64,000 nt of DNA, from positions 169,501-233,500 of the forward strand of contig CAJHNH020008459.1 of the NCBI GenBank assembly GCA_905116865.2. Direction: 5' to 3'. Made by a program: the position numbers and the translations under genes. Below the pieces are notes generated by a model. The model was not told the DNA's origin. It saw only the letters and a program-made list of their open reading frames with translations, and searched no databases. This DNA is from Candidula unifasciata. Its lineage: Eukaryota > Mollusca > Gastropoda > Stylommatophora > Geomitridae. How positions within the stretch are numbered: position 1 is the stretch's first letter; every line of letters starts with the position of its first letter. This document shows, piece after piece, positions 3,070-29,185 of this stretch.

Positions 3070-6000
3070 TGTGAGAGAGAGAGAGAGATAAATTAGGTGA
3101 GAGAGAGAGACTGTCACATTTATCTTTCTAGATTAAGCACATCTGGGTCCTTGCTGACACTCTGGAGTTTGTCAACTTTGCAGTGATTCTTCTTGTGTTA
3201 TCTTGTGGGAAGAAGGGGGTTGGGGGTTCTGTGGGTCTTAAGGCATGGTGTCCGCTTTGAGTCCTGGAAGTCCTGGGTTCAGGCCCCGGTGAAGGCTAGG
3301 ATTTTTTAACGTGGACTTCTAGTAATTTCCCCCTGGTCTCTGGGTAGTAAGATTGGACGCCCATGTGTACTGCTGCACGTGTTTAAAAAAAATCCCTTGG
3401 GAGTTGAAACTGAAAAGAGTAGCCTAACGGCGCTGCTCGGGCAGAATTTTGAGTTAAAAATCTACCCAAAGTATTTCAGGATCCTTACCGGTGCTACGGA
3501 GTTCGTGCACTGTGCTGAGATGACTCAGGCTTGAGTTAGAAGTACAGCGGAGCACTTATGGGTTACTACTCTTGTGCCATGCTGTTGATCTGTTGTAAAA
3601 CTAAACAAAACTAAATATCTTTGGGAGGAGATGGAGCATTTATGGAGGTATTCGTTTTAAATGAAAAATCTTTATTTGAAAACTAGACTATACTTAGATA
3701 AAAAATAACTAACATATACCACTGCTGGTGTGATCTATATATGAGGTAAGTATGATCCAGCAAAGAAAGCAGTTATGAAACGCATTGACAAGGCATCAGT
3801 AGCATTAAAAAGCTTCAACAAAATATGGAACTTTAAATTCTATAGTTTTAGAACCAATTCTTCGCTTGCTGCTGAAGATGGGGATGGAGCGCTTATGGGG
3901 TGTCCCGAGTGCTGTGATGTCAATTCTCAATTCAACATTCAGTTTTAGAACCATTAGAACTAAAGTTATGTATTTTCAGTTTAAAGCTATTTCAGTTTTA
4001 ACATATGCCGGTAAAAGTTGGAGAACTACCTAATACTTGGAGTGAAAGTTGAAGAACTAGTTAATACTTGGAGTGAAAGTTGGAGAACTACTTAATACTT
4101 GGAGTGAAAGTTGGAGAACTACTTAATACTTGGAGTGAAAGTTGGAGAACTACTTAATACTTGGAGTGAAAGTTGGAGAACTACTTAATACTTGAAGTGA
4201 AAGTTGGAAAACTACTTGATACTTGGAGTGAAAGTTGGAGAACTACTTAATACTTGGAGTGAAAGTTACATGCATTTAAAAACAAATGCCTGAGGAACAT
4301 GATGACCATAAAATGGGATGATTCCAAGAGAAGCGAAGAAAACAGAAAAATGTCTGGGCAACCACTAATATCAACAGTTACAAGACAGAGAAGATGGCAG
4401 TATATTAGACACATTCTTAGAAAAGACAAACAGGCACTGAAAAAGGAAACAAATGGATTATGGAAGCGAGGACGCCCAAAAGAAATTGCTAAGTGGATGT
4501 TGTTGAGAGGGGCCAAAGATGCTGGACTGGCTTCCACCCATGATATCGAGGTGACTGCCCAGGACAGAACAGAGTGGAATATTATATTAGACTGCGAGCC
4601 CTAGGTGACACACACAAGCGCAACAGGACAATGAATAAATGAATGAAAATGACTCGGCAAATTTACGGTTTCTCGGCAGCGAGTAAATTAATATCCTACC
4701 TTCCCTTCAGCATCCAGCTCCAGTTTGTCATTCTGTGACTGAGTGTGAGAAAACAACTGCATCTCCCCGCTGGAGTTGGTGCTGTATGTGCTGCTACCAT
4801 TTGTACGTGTATCCGTGCTATTCGTGTCTGTGGCGCCCAGCAGATTCGGCCCTGACAGGAAGTAGTTAGTCGGCGTGGTCGGGGAATCCGCGCTTGAGCT
4901 GTCCGTGGTGCGCTGTCTGGTGGACTCTGGACTGTTGTAAGAAGCCCCATGGGGGAAGCCGGAAGCTCCATGGGCCACACTGTAGGACGGGGTGTGTGCT
5001 GGCGATGAAATACTGCGGACTGAACTGGGGCTGTGGACTGACAGCGGGTAGTTGAAGTTTCTTACCAGCAGGGTTATATCATCCCGTTTCTGGCACAGAG
5101 CCTTCTGAGTTTCGTTGCCGGTCATGAATGTATCGTGGTGGATACGCACCACCCTGTCTACCACAGCTTGAGCGACGCCGGTCAGTGTCGTCTGCTGGGA
5201 GAACTCTTGGGCGACCATCTTAGCAATGTCTCCGTTCACTGTATCTGTACCTGTGGCATCGGCCAAAGCCTGGTACAAGCCGTCAGACATTAAAACCATG
5301 AAAGCACAGGAGCTGTCTATCGGCAGTCCCCCATCCACGAATGGGTCGGCGATGACTGGTTCAACTTTGGCTGCACTGTTCGATAAACAAACACCCAGTG
5401 TGTTAATGTAATGGATGAATGGGTGAATGCTGTGGAGTCAAAACTGCTGGTAAAACCTCATGTGTAAAAATAATGATAAAATAAATGTGCACAATTTATT
5501 GCCTAGCATATTTCAATCAGGAAGTCGTAGTGACTAGGCATATGCCTGCAGGCCTGAAGGGTGTGAGTTTTAAACTGCACGAGACAATTTTTTTTTTTAA
5601 CTGACCTAGGCTACTAGGTCGGCCCAGTCTCAAATGGGTTACAGGTATCAGTCTGGGAAAAAAGTGGCAGGAATATTGCATTCACATCACCCAACAGTTG
5701 TCGACTGGTCTTTACAAATATGAGTTTGAACTTGTATGTTTCTTTTGTTTTGAACAACGGATTAACATCATGGCACATGGGTGTAGCCCATAAGTGCTCC
5801 ATTCTTCTTCTAACTTGTCTGAGTCTGAAGAAGCTCAGCAAAGTGCACAGGCTCCGTAGCACCGGTAAGGATCCTGAAATAATTTGGGTAGATTTTAAAC
5901 TCCAAATTTTGCCCGGGCAGCGCCATTAAGCTATTCTTTTCAATTTCCAACTGCCAAGGGATTTTTTACCTGCGCAACAATGCACACAGGCGTCCGATCT

Positions 6001-21400: not shown

Positions 21401-21717
21401 CTAACTCATGGTGCAGCAGAGCACTGACACAATTTACAATATGCTGCCTGAAGATCTTTTGAGCATGTTTGGGTATCTCCAAATTACTATTATACTTGCG
21501 AATGCTGTCATAAGATGCTTTCCATTTTTTTAATGACGTTGCCGTTGGTAAAAGTAATAAAAATCTATCACAAATAGAACTACGTCTATTTCATCTCTAT
21601 TTTCTATTCTTAAGTAGTTTTTGAACAGTCTGAATCAATAGGTATCAGTCGTGGGTTTTGGTTTTATATCCCGCATGTATATAAATTAACATAAATTACA
21701 GAGGGCATTGGTTTATC

Positions 21718-22042
21718 CATGACCGGCTCCAGCTGACGGGCCGTGCTGCTGACGTCACCGCGTCAGGCTGACGATGCGGTAACGCAGCGGTTCTCAAACA
21801 AGATATAAACTATTTTCGACAGTGGCAAGGAAAGACAACTTAAATTTTATCTTTAAGTATCTACATGCCTTCTTCATTATTTCACATTTTTAGCCGACTT
21901 TTCTTTATTACGCGGCAGCCCTGGCATACGCTCAGGACACCCCAGGCTGCCTCAGCACCCAGTTTGAGAAATGCTGCGTTAACGCATCGTTAGCCCGACC
22001 CGGTGACGTCAGCAGCACGGCCCGTCAGCTGGAGCCGGTCGT
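21718..22042. mobile_element. Left MITE copy
   Basis: Terminal inverted repeats of about 79 bp, the first 40 perfect, starting GACCGGCTCCAGCTGACGGG at 21721. Only about three substitutions separate it from the right copy, so the pair is recent or has been homogenised. No coding capacity. An 8-bp duplication would fit hAT, P or Merlin; the superfamily is unassigned. Confidence 0.88.
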
Positions 22043-22050
22043 GGACAAAT

Positions 22051-24107
22051 TGTCCGCAGTTGAGATCAAACCTGGCATTACGAAGCGTGTTCGCGTGAAA
22101 GGGTACATTAATCTTCACAACTGTGGAACCTGTGTGTTACATATATGCTCTCTACATGCAATAGAGCGATCTCAGGTTTGCCCGGTTGGCATTCCAATAT
22201 AAACCAATTACGTGGAATGGTGGAAGAGATGTGTCGTACCACAAACTTCTTAGATGTATGTGGTCTTCTTATCCAAAAACAACTGGCAGGGGGAACGGAA
22301 AGAAGAAGATTAAGATACATGAGTTAACAAATTAAAACTGTGTTCAGAGAGCTCAGTTTACCAACTATACCCACACAGGCTAGCATGATCGTTACGGGTG
22401 CCCCAGTTCTAATCTCCCTACATGTTGAACGGAATGTCTGAGCTTTGTCACGTTGTTTTGTCACCCATGAAGAGAAGCTAAATTTCTCAGGGATTATCAA
22501 ATTCTCAGGGGTTATCAAATTTTTGGAAGGCATCCTGTGTGGGAAAAACCAGCAAAGATAGCCAACCCAGCAAATGTTCTGAAATCTTTCAACATGAATA
22601 AGTCAAGGGAATAAATTCTGGGCGAGGATTTCTTCCTACTTGTTGCAATGTTGTAAAGTTTGCGGTGGGGTAGAATGTTAACAATATCGCCCAGTGAATT
22701 CTGTTACTACTGGCTAGTGAATACTGGGACCGGCTCAATCAATAGTAGGACAGACTAGATGAAGATTGGAACAGGTTAACTGGATGTTGACATTCGGTAA
22801 CTGAGTGCCGGAAGTGGCAAACTGAATGCTGGGAGTGGCAAACTAAATATTGGGCGGGACTAACTGAATACTGGGCGTGGCTAACTGAACATTGGGAGGG
22901 GCTAACTGAACATTGAGAGCGGCTAACTGAACATTGGGAGCGGCTAACTGAACTTTGGGAGTGGCTAACCCAACATTAGGAGCGGTTAAGTGAACATTGG
23001 GAGCGGCTAAGTGAACATTAGGAACGGCTAACTGAACATTGGGAGTGGCTAACTGAAAGTTGGGAGCGGCTAACTGAACGTTGGGTGTGGCTAACTGAAC
23101 GTTGGGAGCGGCTAACTGAACGTTGGGAGCGGCTAACTGAACGTTGGGGGCGGCTAACTGAACGTTGGGAGCGGCTAACTGAACGTTGGGTGTGTCTAAC
23201 TGAACGTTGGGTGTGGCTAACTGAACGTTGGGAGCGGCTAACTGAACACTTGAAGCGACTTACTGAATGTTGGGAGTGGCAAACTAAATATTGGACGTGA
23301 CTAATTGAATACTGGGCGTTGTTAACTAAATGCTGACCCTGGCAGACTCAGTGTTGGGTGCGGCTGACTGAACATTGGGAGCGGCTAACTGAACATTGGG
23401 AGTGACTAACTAAATACTGTGAGTGCTAACTCAGCGTTGGGAGTGGCAAAATGAATGCTGACACTGGCGGACTGAATGTTAAGGGTGGCTGACTGAATGT
23501 TGACGTGTTCAAACTGGCGGACTGGATGTTGACAGCGGCAACATGGGAGTGTATTATGTGCAATGACGTCGACTATGATAACACACAAGCATGTCGTAAG
23601 AGTCCACTAACTGTGGGCTTCTTCAAAGTCAGAGTGCATCTGCCTGAGAGGCAAGGAACCAATAGTCTGCATACGGGTAAGACAGTTCTGTAAAAAGGAT
23701 GCGCAAGCGGCATTCAGGTTCTGGAACAAGACTAAAGTCTAAAGGTGGACGAACAACTTGAAGTTTCCGCCGGAGAATCCAGACGGTAAACACTAAGAAG
23801 AAGAAACGGTCTAAAATTGGTATCGAGGTAAAGTCCTGGAAAGTAAAGGCATCAGGTGGTGGTTATCCATAACGACCATCTAATTCCGATTAGTCAGTAA
23901 AAAATATATGTCTTGCACAATATGTTATTTGCGTATCCTTTACAGGACGTTGCAGAACCAGCTTTAGCATTATTTGACTTTTATGGTTTCTCTAGGCAAA
24001 CAACATTTTTTGACTGTTGTGGTTTTTCTAGGCAAATTTTACGTTCAATAGTTTGTCATTGCTTTTGAACAGTCAGCTCTTGGTACCATTGTCGAAACCA
24101 ACGCAAA
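22051..24107. repeat. Tandem unit 1 (SINE D end, 21-bp minisatellite, SINE A)
   Basis: Order: SINE D right half (tgtccgcagttgagatc), a unique stretch 22100-22440, 'gctttgtcacgttgttttgt', a 21-bp minisatellite (about 22780-23480, 'ggagcggctaactgaacatt'), SINE A (23560-23815), then SINE D left part (23930-24107). Landmarks recur in unit 2 at offsets of 1750-1753 bases. Confidence 0.8.
22780..23480. repeat. 21-bp minisatellite, first array
   Basis: Over 25 copies of 'gttgggagcggctaactgaa' (period 21) with point variation. The period is seven codons, so it creates a repetitive open frame (LTERWER) that is not a gene. Confidence 0.9.
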
Positions 24108-25827
24108 ACAAATTGTCCGCAGCTGGGATCAAACCCAGCAACCCAGCATTACAAAGCGCGTTCGCATGAAAAGGTTATATTAACCCCTACTGGAGCTTTG
24201 TCACGTTGTTTTGTCACCCATGAAGAGAAGCTAAATTTCTCAGGGATTATCAATTTCTCAGGGATTATCACACTTTCAGAGGTTATCACATTTTCGGCAA
24301 GCATCCCGGATGGGAAAAACCGGCAACGATAGCCAACCAAACAAATGTTCCGAAAATTGTTAACATAAATAAGTGAAGGGAATAAATTCTGAGCGAGGAT
24401 TCCTTCATACTTGTTGCAATGTTATAAAGTTTGCGGTGGGGTAGAATGTTAACAATATTACCCAGTGAATTATGTTACTACTGGCTCTTGAATACTGGGA
24501 CCGGCTCAATCAATAGTAGGACAGATTAGATGAGTACTGGAACAGATTAACTGGATGTTGACACACGGTGACTGAATGCCGGGAGTGGCAAAACTGGATA
24601 TTGGGCGTGAATAACTGAATACTGGGCGTGGCTAACTGAATGTTGACACTGGCGGGCTGAATGTTGGGAGCGGCTAACTGAACACTAGGAGCGGCTAACT
24701 GAACATTGGGAGTGGCTAACTGAACATTGGGAGCGGCTAACTGAACATTGGGAGCGGCTAACTGAACATTGGGAGTGCCTAACTGAAAACTGGAAGCGGC
24801 TAACTGAACGTTAGGAGTGGCAAACTTTACATTGGGAGCGGCTAACTGAACACTGGGAGCGACTTACTGAATGTTAGGAGTAGCAAACTGAACATTGGGA
24901 GTGCCTAACTGAAAACTGGAAGCGGCTAACTGAACATTGGGAGTGGCTAAGTGAACATTGGGAGCGGCTAACTGAACGTTGGGAGCGGCTAACTGAACCC
25001 TGGGAGCGACTTACTGAATGTTAGGAGTAGCAAACTGAATATTGGGAGTGACTAACTGAATACTGTGAGTAGCTAACTCAGCGTTGTGAGTGGCAAAATG
25101 AATGCTGACACTGGCGGACTGAATATTAGGAGTGGATGGTTAAACGCTGTGAGTAGCTAAATGAATATTGGGAGTGACTAACTAAATACTGTGAGTGGCT
25201 AACTCAGCGTTGTGAGTGGCAAAATGAATGCTGACACTGGCGGACTGAATGTTGACGTGGTAAAACTGGCGGGCTGGATGTTGGCAGCGGCAACATGGGA
25301 GTCTATTATGTGCAATGACGTCGACTATGATAAAACAAAAGCATGTCGTAAGAGTCCACTGTGGGCTTCTTCGAAGTCAAAGTGCATCTGCCTGAGAGGC
25401 AAGGAACCAATAGTCTGCATACGAGTAAGCCAGTTCTGTAAAAAGGATGCGGAAGCGGCATTCAGGTTCTGGAACAAGACTAAGGTCTAGAGGTGGACGA
25501 ACAACTTGAACTTTCCGCCGGAGATTACAGACGGTGAACGCAAAGAAGAAGAAACTGTCTAAAATGGGTATCGAGGTAAAGTCCTGGAAAGTAAAGGCAG
25601 CAGGTGGTGGCTATCCATAACGTCCACCTAATTCCGATTAGTCAGTTAAAAAAATATATGTCTTGCACAATATGTTATTTGCGTATCCTTTACAGGACGT
25701 TGCAGAACCAGCTTTAGCATTATTAGACTTTTATGGTTTCTCTAGGCAAATTTCACGTTCAATAGTTTGCCATTGCCCCTGAACTATCAGCTATCGGTGC
25801 CAATGTCGAAACCAACGCAAGACAAAT
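24108..25827. repeat. Tandem unit 2
   Basis: Starts with the uninterrupted SINE D junction 'acaaattgtccgcagctggg' at 24109, which is the empty-site version of the MITE target. It then repeats the order of unit 1: 'gctttgtcacgttg', 21-bp array (24540-25250), SINE A (25312-25560), SINE D left half (25681-25827) ending at the right MITE. Divergence from unit 1 is visible throughout the array. Confidence 0.8.
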
Positions 25828-26152
25828 CATGACCGGCTCCAGCTGACGGGCCGTGCTGCTGACGTCACCGCGTCAGGCTAACGATGCGGTAACGCAGCGG
25901 TTCTAAAACAAGATATAAACTATTTTCGACAGTGGCAAGGAAAGACAACTTAAATTTTATCTTTAAGTATCTACATGCCTTCTTCATTATTTCACATTTT
26001 TAGCCGACTTTTCTTTATTACGCGGCAGCCCTGGCATACGCTCAGGACACCCTAGGCTGCCTCAGCACCCAGTTTGAGAAATGCTGCGTTAACGCATCGT
26101 TAGCCCGACCCGGTGACGTCAGCAGCACGGCCCGTCAGCTGGAGCCGGTCGT
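25828..26152. mobile_element. Right MITE copy
   Basis: Same length and TIRs as the left copy. Its left flank AGACAAAT belongs to SINE D, and its right flank GGTTTATC matches the left flank of the other copy. Confidence 0.88.
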
Positions 26153-26335
26153 GGTTTATCGAAGCCACGATCCGTTTAGGAAGACAACAACAAACACAAT
26201 AAGAGATTGCGCGAATCTCCATTCGTTCCTACCTGGACATCAGAACAAAGACAAACTGAAATAAAGATGTTTGTTAACTGCAGGCCTACACAGCTTTTAG
26301 TAAATCTGCATGTTTCTCACGGAGGAACCATATAG

Positions 26336-28021: not shown

Positions 28022-29185
28022 GCGTCATTCATTCATTGATTCAGTAGCATGTCCCTCGCGGAACCTCGCTGTCATAACAACCCTCCGGAAAACCTTCCTA
28101 TCCTGAGCAAGATGTCCTGCGTCTGATACACCCATCTGGAGATCATCTGCCACATCCTGCACCCATCTTCTCCTTGGCCTTCCTCTTCCTCTCTTCCCAG
28201 GCATATACCCCTCCATTATTGTTCTCTCTAGACTTCCATGACGTTTCAAGTGACCAAAATATTTCAATTTTCTTTGTTTTATTGTCTTTACTAGCCAACC
28301 CTCTTCAATATTCAGCTCTTGAAGTATGGATGCATTTGTTCTTTTCTTTACCCAAGATATTCTTAGAACCTGTCTGTAACATTTATATTCAAATGCATTT
28401 ATGCGCTGTTCCGCTTGTTTAGTAAGTGTCCAGGTCTCACAGGCGTATGTTGCAATGGGAAAGATGCATGCTTTTAAGAATCTGACCTTTGTAATTCTAT
28501 CTGTACAATTCCATAATTTATTCAGTTGTTTTAGTCTTTGAAGAGCAATTGATAGTCGCCGTTTAATTTCTTTCATTGTGTCACCATTGTTGGTAACCAG
28601 TGACCCAAGATATTCGAAATTTTCCACCACTTCCAATCTTTCCTCATTAACATATATTTCCTTCTCCATGGCAGTTTTGTTTGTATGCATTATCTTTGTT
28701 TTTGCTATGTTAAGAAATAAGTTATGATTTTCACTATTTCTTTGGAGTGAGGTTAATAAGTTTTCAAAACCATTTTGTGATGTTGATAGTAATACTGTAT
28801 CATCAGCATAACGAATTTCTGGTATTTCATGACCACCGATGTTTAGGGCATCATATTGTTCCTTGTTTATATCATCTCTTACATTTCTCATTATATTTTC
28901 GGCGTACATGTTGAACAAATACGGTGACAGCACACATCCCTGACGGACTCCTTGCTTGATGCCAAACCAGTCTGATGTCTCTCCATCTATTCTGATTGCT
29001 GCTTGTTGGTCTTGATAGAGCATTTTAATGAGCTGCACTATATGTGATGGAAAGCCCATATTCCTCATGATTTCCCAAAGCTTCTGATGTTGTACACAGT
29101 CAAATGCTTTTGAATAATCCACAAAAGCGTCAGCAAAAACAAATGTCTCTGAACATCTTTCTAGTAAAAAAAAAAAAAAAAAAAT
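28022..29185 (-). pseudogene. 5'-truncated LINE, RT domain to C-terminus
   Basis: The minus-strand open frame 28025-29122 gives 365 codons: DYSKAFDCVQHQKLWEIM, IKQGVRQGCVLSPYLFNMYA, RYADDTVLLS (the F/YADD catalytic box), VENFEYLGSLVTNNGD, KYFGHLKRHGSLERTIMEG, RGRGRPRRRW, LAQDRKVFRR. It ends in a (TCAT/TGAA) tail and has a T-run (on the minus strand) at its upper edge. No stop interrupts the RT part, so it is the youngest LINE in the window. It lacks the endonuclease and RT fingers. Confidence 0.88.

Follow-up and report, generated by a model that had tools for sequence, protein, structure and literature searches.

The sequence at positions 21718 to 26153 of the window (the whole stretch of 64,000 nucleotides from Candidula unifasciata that was analysed) is very probably one copy of a family of composite DNA transposons, or macrotransposons, that spread en bloc. 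We put the probability of this reading, which was drawn from sequence comparison, at roughly 0.86. The ends of the block are two complete MITEs and its cargo is two units of satellite DNA.

Structure of the window copy

The left terminal MITE (21718-22043) and the right terminal MITE (25828-26153), both on the forward strand, were aligned and found to be 326 bp each with 3 differences. The initial annotation had given about three differences, as found, and a length of 325 bp, which is corrected here. The heptamer GTTTATC was present to the left of the left MITE (21711-21717) and to the right of the right MITE (26154-26160), and GACAAAT was present to the right of the left MITE (22044-22050) and to the left of the right MITE (25821-25827). 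The match was 7/7 for both pairs, while the left and right flanks of each MITE taken by itself agreed at only 2/7 in both MITEs. The earlier proposal that the flanks match crosswise, with neither MITE having a pair of its own, was thereby confirmed. Two random 7-mers of the window agree at a frequency of 1.3e-4, which puts the chance of both crosswise matches at about 2e-8 if the choice of pairing is left uncorrected. The outer pair was deemed to be the target-site duplication of the block, and the inner pair the two halves of the founding MITE's own duplication. The outer duplication had previously been read as 8 bp; it is real but 7 bp long, the extra G being the last base of the element.

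The terminal element was assigned as a MITE on the basis of its short length, its inverted repeats, the existence of solo copies with their own duplication and its high copy number. Exact copies of the MITE end cores numbered 534 in the genome, and an exact copy of the 22-base MITE end was absent from viral contigs. The termini read CA...TG and carry long inverted repeats; in the left MITE, the inverted arms are 82 bp long and 91% complementary. The element is itself nested: sequence inspection placed a 192-bp element (21785-21976 in the left MITE) midway in a near-perfect palindrome of 126 bp, of which 116 positions are self-complementary. This inner element is flanked by CGGTAACG and CGTTAACG (8 bp, 7/8 match), and its ends are presumably hAT-like. 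No Rfam match and no tRNA was found in the window. P-type transposase domains gave 116 matches in the genome; the two copies that were opened had ends unlike those of this MITE, and an autonomous partner was not found among these two of 116. The target duplication of 7 to 8 bp fits the P superfamily (Galileo-like), and the account of Galileo gives flanking duplications of 7 bp for most copies (PMC3573991).

The interior was resolved into two satellite units on the forward strand, unit 1 (u1, 22044-24112) and unit 2 (u2, 24113-25827), whose alignment gave 82.6% identity over the shared part. Two units had been predicted, as observed; their sizes are 2.1 and 1.7 kb rather than 1.75 kb each. The same alignment defined U1x, a stretch of 329 bp (22112-22440, forward) that is in u1 and not in u2 and that also occurs, once split, in array units to the right of MITEs at another locus, C6350. 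Repeat analysis located a 21-bp minisatellite of about 31 copies on the forward strand within each unit (22813-23455 in u1, 24581-25228 in u2). A dispersed repeat, which we take to be SINE-like, is embedded in u1 at 23582-23805, with relatives in the window at 91, 2272, 7595, 10002, 43004 and 44553; a 25-mer from it had 6873 exact genomic copies.

The u1-u2 junction is spanned by SINE D (23924-24183), which comparison within the window identified as the undivided counterpart of the sequence that the MITEs interrupt and which we assign to the reverse strand on the assumption of a tRNA-type box. When the inner halves of the block were joined, a unit-to-unit junction like that at 24090-24190 was obtained, including a gap of 12 nt; the SINE copies at about 59.2 kb and 47.3 kb in the window are without it. 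Since the rebuilt junction includes this gap, the inner halves have the look of a satellite unit rather than of an arbitrary SINE copy. The initial annotation had taken the inner flanks for the two halves of a SINE D copy; the rebuilding of the junction stands, with a satellite unit in place of a generic SINE copy.

Copies of the block elsewhere in the genome

The reading of the block as a one-off scar was abandoned, as the same MITE-satellite-MITE arrangement recurs many times. Exact inner junctions numbered 46 (left) and 50 (right) genome-wide, and the order of parts was constant in all fetched loci of sufficient length, which held one, two or three units. Both outer ends were available for 26 sampled copies; the flanks of two of these were set by hand (C1088, left; C2545, right), and the left outer end was unreadable in the fetched pieces of C1136, C1166, C2889, C2357 and C6773. 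The outer duplication was exact in 22 of the 26 (21 of 7 bp and one of 8 bp, with C2545 counted although it is rearranged), matched at 6/7 in two, and was without a match in two (C435 and C4719). Examples are CACAGGC on both outer sides of C3501 and GTATACC on those of C6933, the left MITE of which has an internal deletion. By comparison, none of 65 terminal MITEs, a number that includes 9 truncated ones, had exact flanks of its own, and left and right flanks taken from different loci gave no exact match in 600 combinations. Thus, as expected of a macrotransposon, the target duplication encloses the block as a whole and not its individual MITEs, and the block is present at several independent sites with constant boundaries. 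The alternative offered earlier, that the whole unit had transposed once, was right about transposition en bloc and wrong about the number of events, and the suggestion that satellite arrays disperse on MITEs is supported by these dispersed copies with target duplications.

The spread of the block en bloc was deduced from its interior. Between loci, the mean difference was 1.2 to 3.3% in five of six interior pieces, whereas u1 and u2 within a block differ by about 17%. Movement en bloc of blocks with unlike ends is also supported by sequence variants at a few loci. The two copies at C2334 have in common the variants 104G and 108G, which are right-end-only, and are mutually nearest in the head, U1x and the last Ub, though not in Ua and the first Ub; in both C278 and C620 the left end is of the old type and the right end of the young type.

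Over 18 sites, the targets showed a shared palindromic preference that approximates RTYNRAC, with 30 of 54 pairs symmetric (p 5e-5 by permutation). When left and right flanks were joined, contiguous related empty sites were found for at least 8 of 29, including that of the window, a search the initial annotation had recommended. These uninterrupted targets are relatives of the target repeat, 73 to 85% identical, and not alleles, and two of these eight alignments, those for the window and for C6965, are broken beside the junction by a gap of 7 or 12 columns. Seven of the 29 were without a recognised duplication and were joined whole; C4243 was left out of the count, as the matches shown lie in its own flank.

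Likeness of the ends and solo MITEs

The left and right ends of one locus shared 32 non-consensus states over 22 pairs (truncated MITEs left out), compared to a permuted mean of 9.3 and a maximum of 23 (p 5e-5). As this is far above chance, the ends of a locus were deduced to be homogenised. On the tree, left and right ends were intermingled (21 label changes, where shuffling gave a mean of 18.7), and the mean differences over 14 pairs were 4.9 (left-left), 6.4 (right-right), 5.6 (left-right between loci) and 4.0 (within loci). That left ends and right ends are inherited strictly apart was ruled out by the intermingled tree and the within-locus likeness. Simple repeated cut-and-paste of the whole block leaves this concerted evolution unexplained by itself; the homogenisation perhaps proceeded through tandem multimers or one-MITE circles.

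The sampled solo MITEs numbered 19, a count that omits 4 of 23 sampled non-composite loci for which there was no match over 250 bp. All were old (74 to 89% identical) except C55 (97%), and 9 of the 19 had exact 7-bp flanks. Young solo MITEs look rare from these sequences: in those contigs that were opened out of the ones covered by the first 100 of 534 positions, one clear case (C55) was found against eight composite loci, C88 being unusable for this call since it ends inside its MITE. In a tree that held 4 of 11 old solos and C55 beside the composite ends, the 62 full-length composite ends formed one young lineage against the four old solos.

Alternative interpretations

The initial annotation had suggested that a resident solo MITE took up, by recombination, a circle composed of one MITE and two satellite units, and that the GTTTATC duplication of this solo MITE now flanks the product. 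This would account for the crosswise flanks at a single locus, and solo MITEs with 7-bp duplications do exist, as does an array MITE with GACAAAT on both sides. It requires, however, a resident young MITE at each composite locus, and the solos sampled were old with the exception of C55. Furthermore, no composite end was above 3/16 old-type states, from which it follows that none of the 62 is chimeric with a resident old MITE. Terminal repeats chimeric between a resident and an incoming copy would be the mark of eccDNA reintegration into a resident repeat. The one chimeric case, outside these 62 ends, was the last MITE of the rearranged locus C2545: its terminus at the start is of the old type, and just before it stands the left flank of the locus in a second copy. 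Recombination between MITEs therefore does occur, here as a later rearrangement, but the C2545 block itself was found within an old, inversely oriented MITE, at a point some 48 bp from the end of that MITE and hence not at a homologous position, and GGTTAAC lies outside the block on either side. Resident and circle MITEs would also be independent draws, yet the ends of a locus share alleles. Capture of a circle by a resident MITE was accordingly judged very improbable as the general mechanism.

A different role for circles would be replicative, cointegrate-like insertion of a one-MITE circle (MITE-u1-u2), in which the MITE is copied and a fresh 7-bp duplication arises outside. This predicts exactly the observed anatomy, with both ends from one template as in LTR elements, as well as the shared end alleles and the intermingling of ends on the tree. 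Heterogeneous blocks nonetheless kept their end differences (the C2334 pair, C278 and C620), and tandem multimers or conversion can homogenise ends without such a reaction. We know of no eukaryotic cut-and-paste family that makes cointegrates. A class II element with such an LTR-like cycle, excised or copied as a one-MITE circle with n units and inserting replicatively, is considered unlikely. The direct terminal repeats that are alike within a locus could also suggest a degenerate LTR-retroelement with a palindromic LTR, but this is scarcely credible: the terminal repeat also occurs solo, between 7-bp duplications of its own, the inner flanks were left when a MITE inserted in the satellite junction and duplicated its target, and the termini, which carry long inverted repeats, read CA...TG and not TG...CA. 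Repeats of this kind can be misassembled, and a small number of copies are located at the ends of contigs; an assembly artefact is nevertheless extremely improbable, because the structure recurs with differing flank pairs in dozens of contigs, many of hundreds of kilobases, and the target duplications are exact in most copies. Helentrons are without terminal inverted repeats and without target duplication, and a satellite-carrying Helentron of the Cg_HINE type was ruled out by the long inverted repeats and the 7-bp duplication.

Founder array and proposed history

A candidate for the founder was found in the resident satellite array at C6350. The order there is unit 2-MITE-unit 1, with GACAAAT flanking each MITE on both sides; the initial annotation had proposed a search for an array with such flanks. 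The unit to the left of the MITEs is u2-like (95.6 to 97.3%) and the start of the right unit is u1-like (96.0 to 96.5%). Beyond its start, the right-hand unit resembles u1 no more closely than other units do (Ub of u1, 90.9%), and C6350 may therefore be a relative of the founder or a later recipient of the MITE. Outside the window, five of six middle MITEs had GACAAAT on both sides.

The following history is proposed. A palindromic MITE would have inserted in the SINE-derived junction of a 1.75-kb tandem repeat, duplicating GACAAAT. Recombination between array units, by unequal exchange or circle excision, would then have given MITE-u1-u2-MITE, a circular permutation of u2-MITE-u1. A putative transposase acting in trans would recognise the block by the outward-facing termini of its left and right MITEs and move all that lies between, and the window copy would have entered a dispersed repeat at GTTTATC in this way. 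Tandem multimers (MITE-array-MITE-array), formed by unequal exchange or from one-MITE circles, would launch new blocks and so keep the ends alike, and gene conversion, with or without multimers, may add to the homogenisation. A one-MITE circle may have contributed to how the block arose, or to how its ends stay alike.

Relation to known systems

Composite elements bounded by TIMEs have reportedly been described in bacteria (PMC13367494). Like the snail block, TIMEs are MITE-sized elements that mobilise adjacent DNA in a composite-like manner with a target duplication; as portrayed in that work, they are bacterial, of the Tn3 family, with plasmid cargo and duplications of 5 to 6 bp, whereas the snail block is eukaryotic with satellite cargo (PMC4133298). 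The block also resembles the maize Ac/Ds macrotransposons, in which two nearby transposons and the DNA between them move via their outer ends and excision leaves a modified 8-bp target duplication (PMC9910405). As far as that account goes, the maize cases are individual alleles in lines, with enhancer cargo, and the snail block is a dispersed family with satellite cargo that differs further in its 7-bp duplication, its whole MITEs as ends and the continued likeness of those ends (PMC9910405).

Galileo of Drosophila, of the P superfamily, is described with long inverted repeats and mostly 7-bp duplications, as in the snail block (PMC3573991), and macrotransposition of neighbouring copies was proposed as the origin of one of the P-MITEs of Anopheles gambiae (PMC1562414). 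Satellite cargo between two complete MITEs is not described for either in the portions of these papers cited here (PMC1562414, PMC3573991). On the snail side, the likeness to the P superfamily is one of duplication length and long inverted repeats, and the two P-type transposase copies opened in the snail genome gave no transposase link. Among molluscs, the Cg_HINE Helentrons of the Pacific oyster are likewise mobile elements that disperse satellite-like tandem repeats; in their description the tandem repeats are central, while the snail block has terminal inverted repeats and a target duplication (PMC7492417). Tetris/DAIBAM of Drosophila virilis similarly links a foldback or MITE-type transposon to satellite arrays, but its satellite is reported to come from the transposon's own end repeats, whereas in the snail an outside satellite was presumably captured between MITEs (PMC4079207).

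If the proposed reading is correct, a pair of animal MITEs can serve as a composite transposon and carry several kilobases of unrelated DNA to many loci. How satellites arrive at new chromosomal sites is an old question, to which the usual answer is circles, whose reintegration is hard to see. The block would provide a concrete route for the spread of satellite DNA, which would jump as cargo between two MITEs. The LTR-like class II cycle, if true, would mean that satellite DNA spreads in eukaryotic chromosomes by a cointegrate-type reaction. In the snail each step is testable by sequence, since one and the same genome contains the mobile block as well as a candidate for its founder array, multimers in tandem, the target duplications and related sites without the block.

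Structure of the block and its surroundings

The block at 21718-26153 consists of two MITEs (21718-22043 and 25828-26153), each of 326 bp and with 3 differences between them, that enclose two tandem-repeat units, u1 and u2, with 82.6% identity over their shared part. The crosswise matching of the MITE flanks described in the initial annotation was borne out, as the crosswise pairs agreed at 7/7 positions in both directions compared to just 2/7 for the pair around each copy. The MITE itself was found to be nested, a feature missing from that annotation: a 192-bp element with 8-bp flanks (matching at 7/8) sits within a 126-bp palindrome that is self-complementary at 116 of the 126 positions. Both units contain a 21-bp minisatellite, an abundant SINE-like repeat (23582-23805, with relatives elsewhere in the window; one 25-mer gave 6873 perfect matches genome-wide), and part of a presumed tRNA-like SINE, so named for its B box. 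When joined, the inner halves gave a unit-unit junction. A 12-nt gap was common to the joined halves and to the uninterrupted junction at 24.1 kb and was absent from SINE copies around 59.2 kb and 47.3 kb.

Elsewhere in the window, the minus strand carries an exon of TAB1 (MAP3K7-binding protein 1) at 4688-5338, for which the closest named relative was from Batillaria attramentaria (77% identity over 46% of the query, with unnamed matches scoring better), pointing to a gastropod mollusc as the source of the window, and a reverse transcriptase fragment at 28025-29122, which we take to be from a retroelement of the non-LTR type.

Distribution and flanking duplications

A query made of the left MITE plus flanking sequence was run against the genome of the window (1.34 Gb in 7176 contigs). 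Under a scoring that favors long matches reaching the query end, 40 of 2445 candidates were scored, and 36 of these (window included) extended to the query end, i.e., into the inner flank GACAAATTGTCCGCAG; the outer flank was for the most part not in common. Exact junction patterns were found genome-wide 46 times for the left and 50 times for the right. Sampling of 20 loci of 3-10 kb, and then of the ends of additional ones, revealed a recurrent order of MITE, Us, U1x, Ua, minisatellite, Ub, Uc (the pieces of a unit), further units, and MITE, with 1, 2, or 3 units. Internal deletions of the palindrome that kept both termini were observed at C2189:105417-105469 (G000), the right MITE of C2357 (L010), and the left MITE of C1088 (L030), leaving MITEs of 31, 21, and 35 bp, respectively. 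The composites on C2503 (L018) and C4719 (L044) have the same left flank beside them, representing either alternative haplotypes or a duplication.

An exact direct repeat was present outside the block in 22 of the 26 loci with both outer ends readable (7 bp in 21 and 8 bp in 1). This count includes the rearranged locus on contig C2545, and its exclusion gives 21/25. The outer flanks matched at 6/7 for two others (C1088 and C6361) and were without a match for the remaining two (C435 and C4719). When left and right flanks were compared across different loci, none of 600 combinations was exact and 13 agreed at 6 or more bases (with C6933 misplaced here). Not one of the 65 terminal MITEs (9 truncated) had an exact flank pair of its own. 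Among the 6 middle MITEs lying between satellite sequences, GACAAAT was present on either side in 5, the sixth having one extra base. The target sites showed a palindromic preference close to RTYNRAC (n = 18 sites), which explains the likeness of GTTTATC, the outer flank in the window, to the reverse complement of GACAAAT.

Insertion targets

The outer flanks were joined for 29 loci, with a single copy of the duplication kept in the 22 where it was recognized. For eight of the 29 (the window, C3654, C6965, C115, C2265, C6361, C1088, and C2545), a relative in other sampled DNA was continuous through the junction; these matches are related repeats, not alleles. The relative of the window site lies on C2334 (76% over 283 columns). 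An alignment gap of 7 or 12 columns adjoins the junction for the window site and C6965. The C1088 composite had SINE D as its insertion target, and the C2545 composite an old (diverged), inverted solo MITE.

At C2545, GGTTAAC lies outside both the left and the last MITE, and the joined flanks reconstitute the old MITE. The last MITE (L051, L086) is a chimera, with an old-type terminus at its start and the young variants of this locus further in, and upstream of it is a copy of the left flank of the locus in place of satellite. From the joined flanks and the chimeric MITE, insertion into an old MITE was deduced, followed by recombination between MITEs that rearranged the locus. C2545 partly opposes a simple reading.

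Candidate transposase superfamily and precedents

The 7-bp duplication and the CA...TG termini point to the P superfamily for the MITE. Matches to P-type transposase numbered at least 116 in the genome, and the MITE ends were not found on the two copies inspected. Transposase-domain copies on C307:287600-291700 (L089) and C3121:310600-314800 (L090) share 98.6% identity over 3.2 kb and are a recently spread family. A 7-bp duplication is also found at most copies of Galileo (PMC3573991).

Macrotransposons are known from maize (PMC9910405), macrotransposition is proposed for one MITE of Anopheles (PMC1562414), composites bounded by MITEs are described in bacteria (PMC4133298), Helentrons of oyster carry satellite (PMC7492417), and mollusc satellites have MITEs nearby (PMC5139131). 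Among the literature matches listed, none described satellite DNA carried between a pair of MITEs as a composite transposon in an animal, which does not amount to proof of novelty.

Origin and spread of the block

The initial annotation favored a circle recombining into a resident MITE. Sixteen positions distinguish old solo MITEs from composite ends, and none of 62 composite ends had more than 3 of the 16 old states, which speaks against that route. Identical old states were found at both ends in C236 and C6361, as expected of retained ancestry, and in C2265 for one of three. Solo MITEs of the same family were 74-89% identical, and of the 19 sampled, 9 were flanked by an exact 7-bp repeat belonging to the solo copy itself. 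The sole clearly young solo sampled, C55:5480-6060 (L064; 97% identity, own repeat GGTGGTA), falls inside the composite clade and may be the remnant of a block whose interior was lost by end-to-end recombination or a MITE that moved alone.

The initial annotation proposed a search for the array with a single MITE between two GACAAAT flanks. Contig C6350 comes close to this: it has a resident array of at least 6 units that includes two MITEs, each with GACAAAT on either side. No outer MITE ends were seen over ~12 kb of C6350 (excluding the unit between the MITEs, 240121-241879). The unit left of these MITEs is u2-like (Ua 97.1%, Ub 95.6%, and Uc 97.3%), and the start of the unit to their right is u1-like (U1x 96.0% and Ua 96.5%). 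U1x, a 329-bp segment of u1 that is absent from u2, is present in the units right of the MITEs. Other pieces of C6350 were at 77-94%, except for short pieces of 56-70 bp at 95-96%, and the best match there to Ub of u1 was 90.9%. The array order u2-MITE-u1 and the block order MITE-u1-u2-MITE are circular permutations, as predicted by unequal exchange or circle formation, either of which could have converted the array into the block. Judged by these sequences, C6350 would be the founder or a relative of the founder; it is also possible that the MITE entered this array later through recombination.

Overall, the left and right MITEs at a given locus are alike. Non-consensus states common to both ends numbered 32 in 22 pairs compared to 9.3 expected (p 5e-5), the tree contained no grouping of left ends or of right ends, and the states of most old solos (e.g., 173T and 184C) were retained on the left and right alike in several loci, whereas in others both ends had lost them to replacement. 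From this likeness and this joint retention or replacement, it was concluded that the ends are homogenized from time to time. Tandem multimers would provide a simple path; middle MITEs occur on C2357, C3656, C2545, C6350, and C6773, with the two on C6350 identical and the left and middle MITEs of C2545 different at 1 position.

Blocks with unlike ends were common to two pairs of loci, namely the two C2334 copies, and C278 and C620. The matching unlike ends point to inheritance of the whole block in both pairs. The C2334 copies were mutually nearest in the head, U1x, and last Ub; this did not hold for Ua or for the first Ub. Mean divergence between loci was 1.2-3.3% in 5 of 6 interior pieces and 9% in the 65-base head piece, in part owing to the single locus C3654. 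Since the interior divergence between loci is far below that between u1 and u2, it was concluded that the block was copied elsewhere after it had formed.
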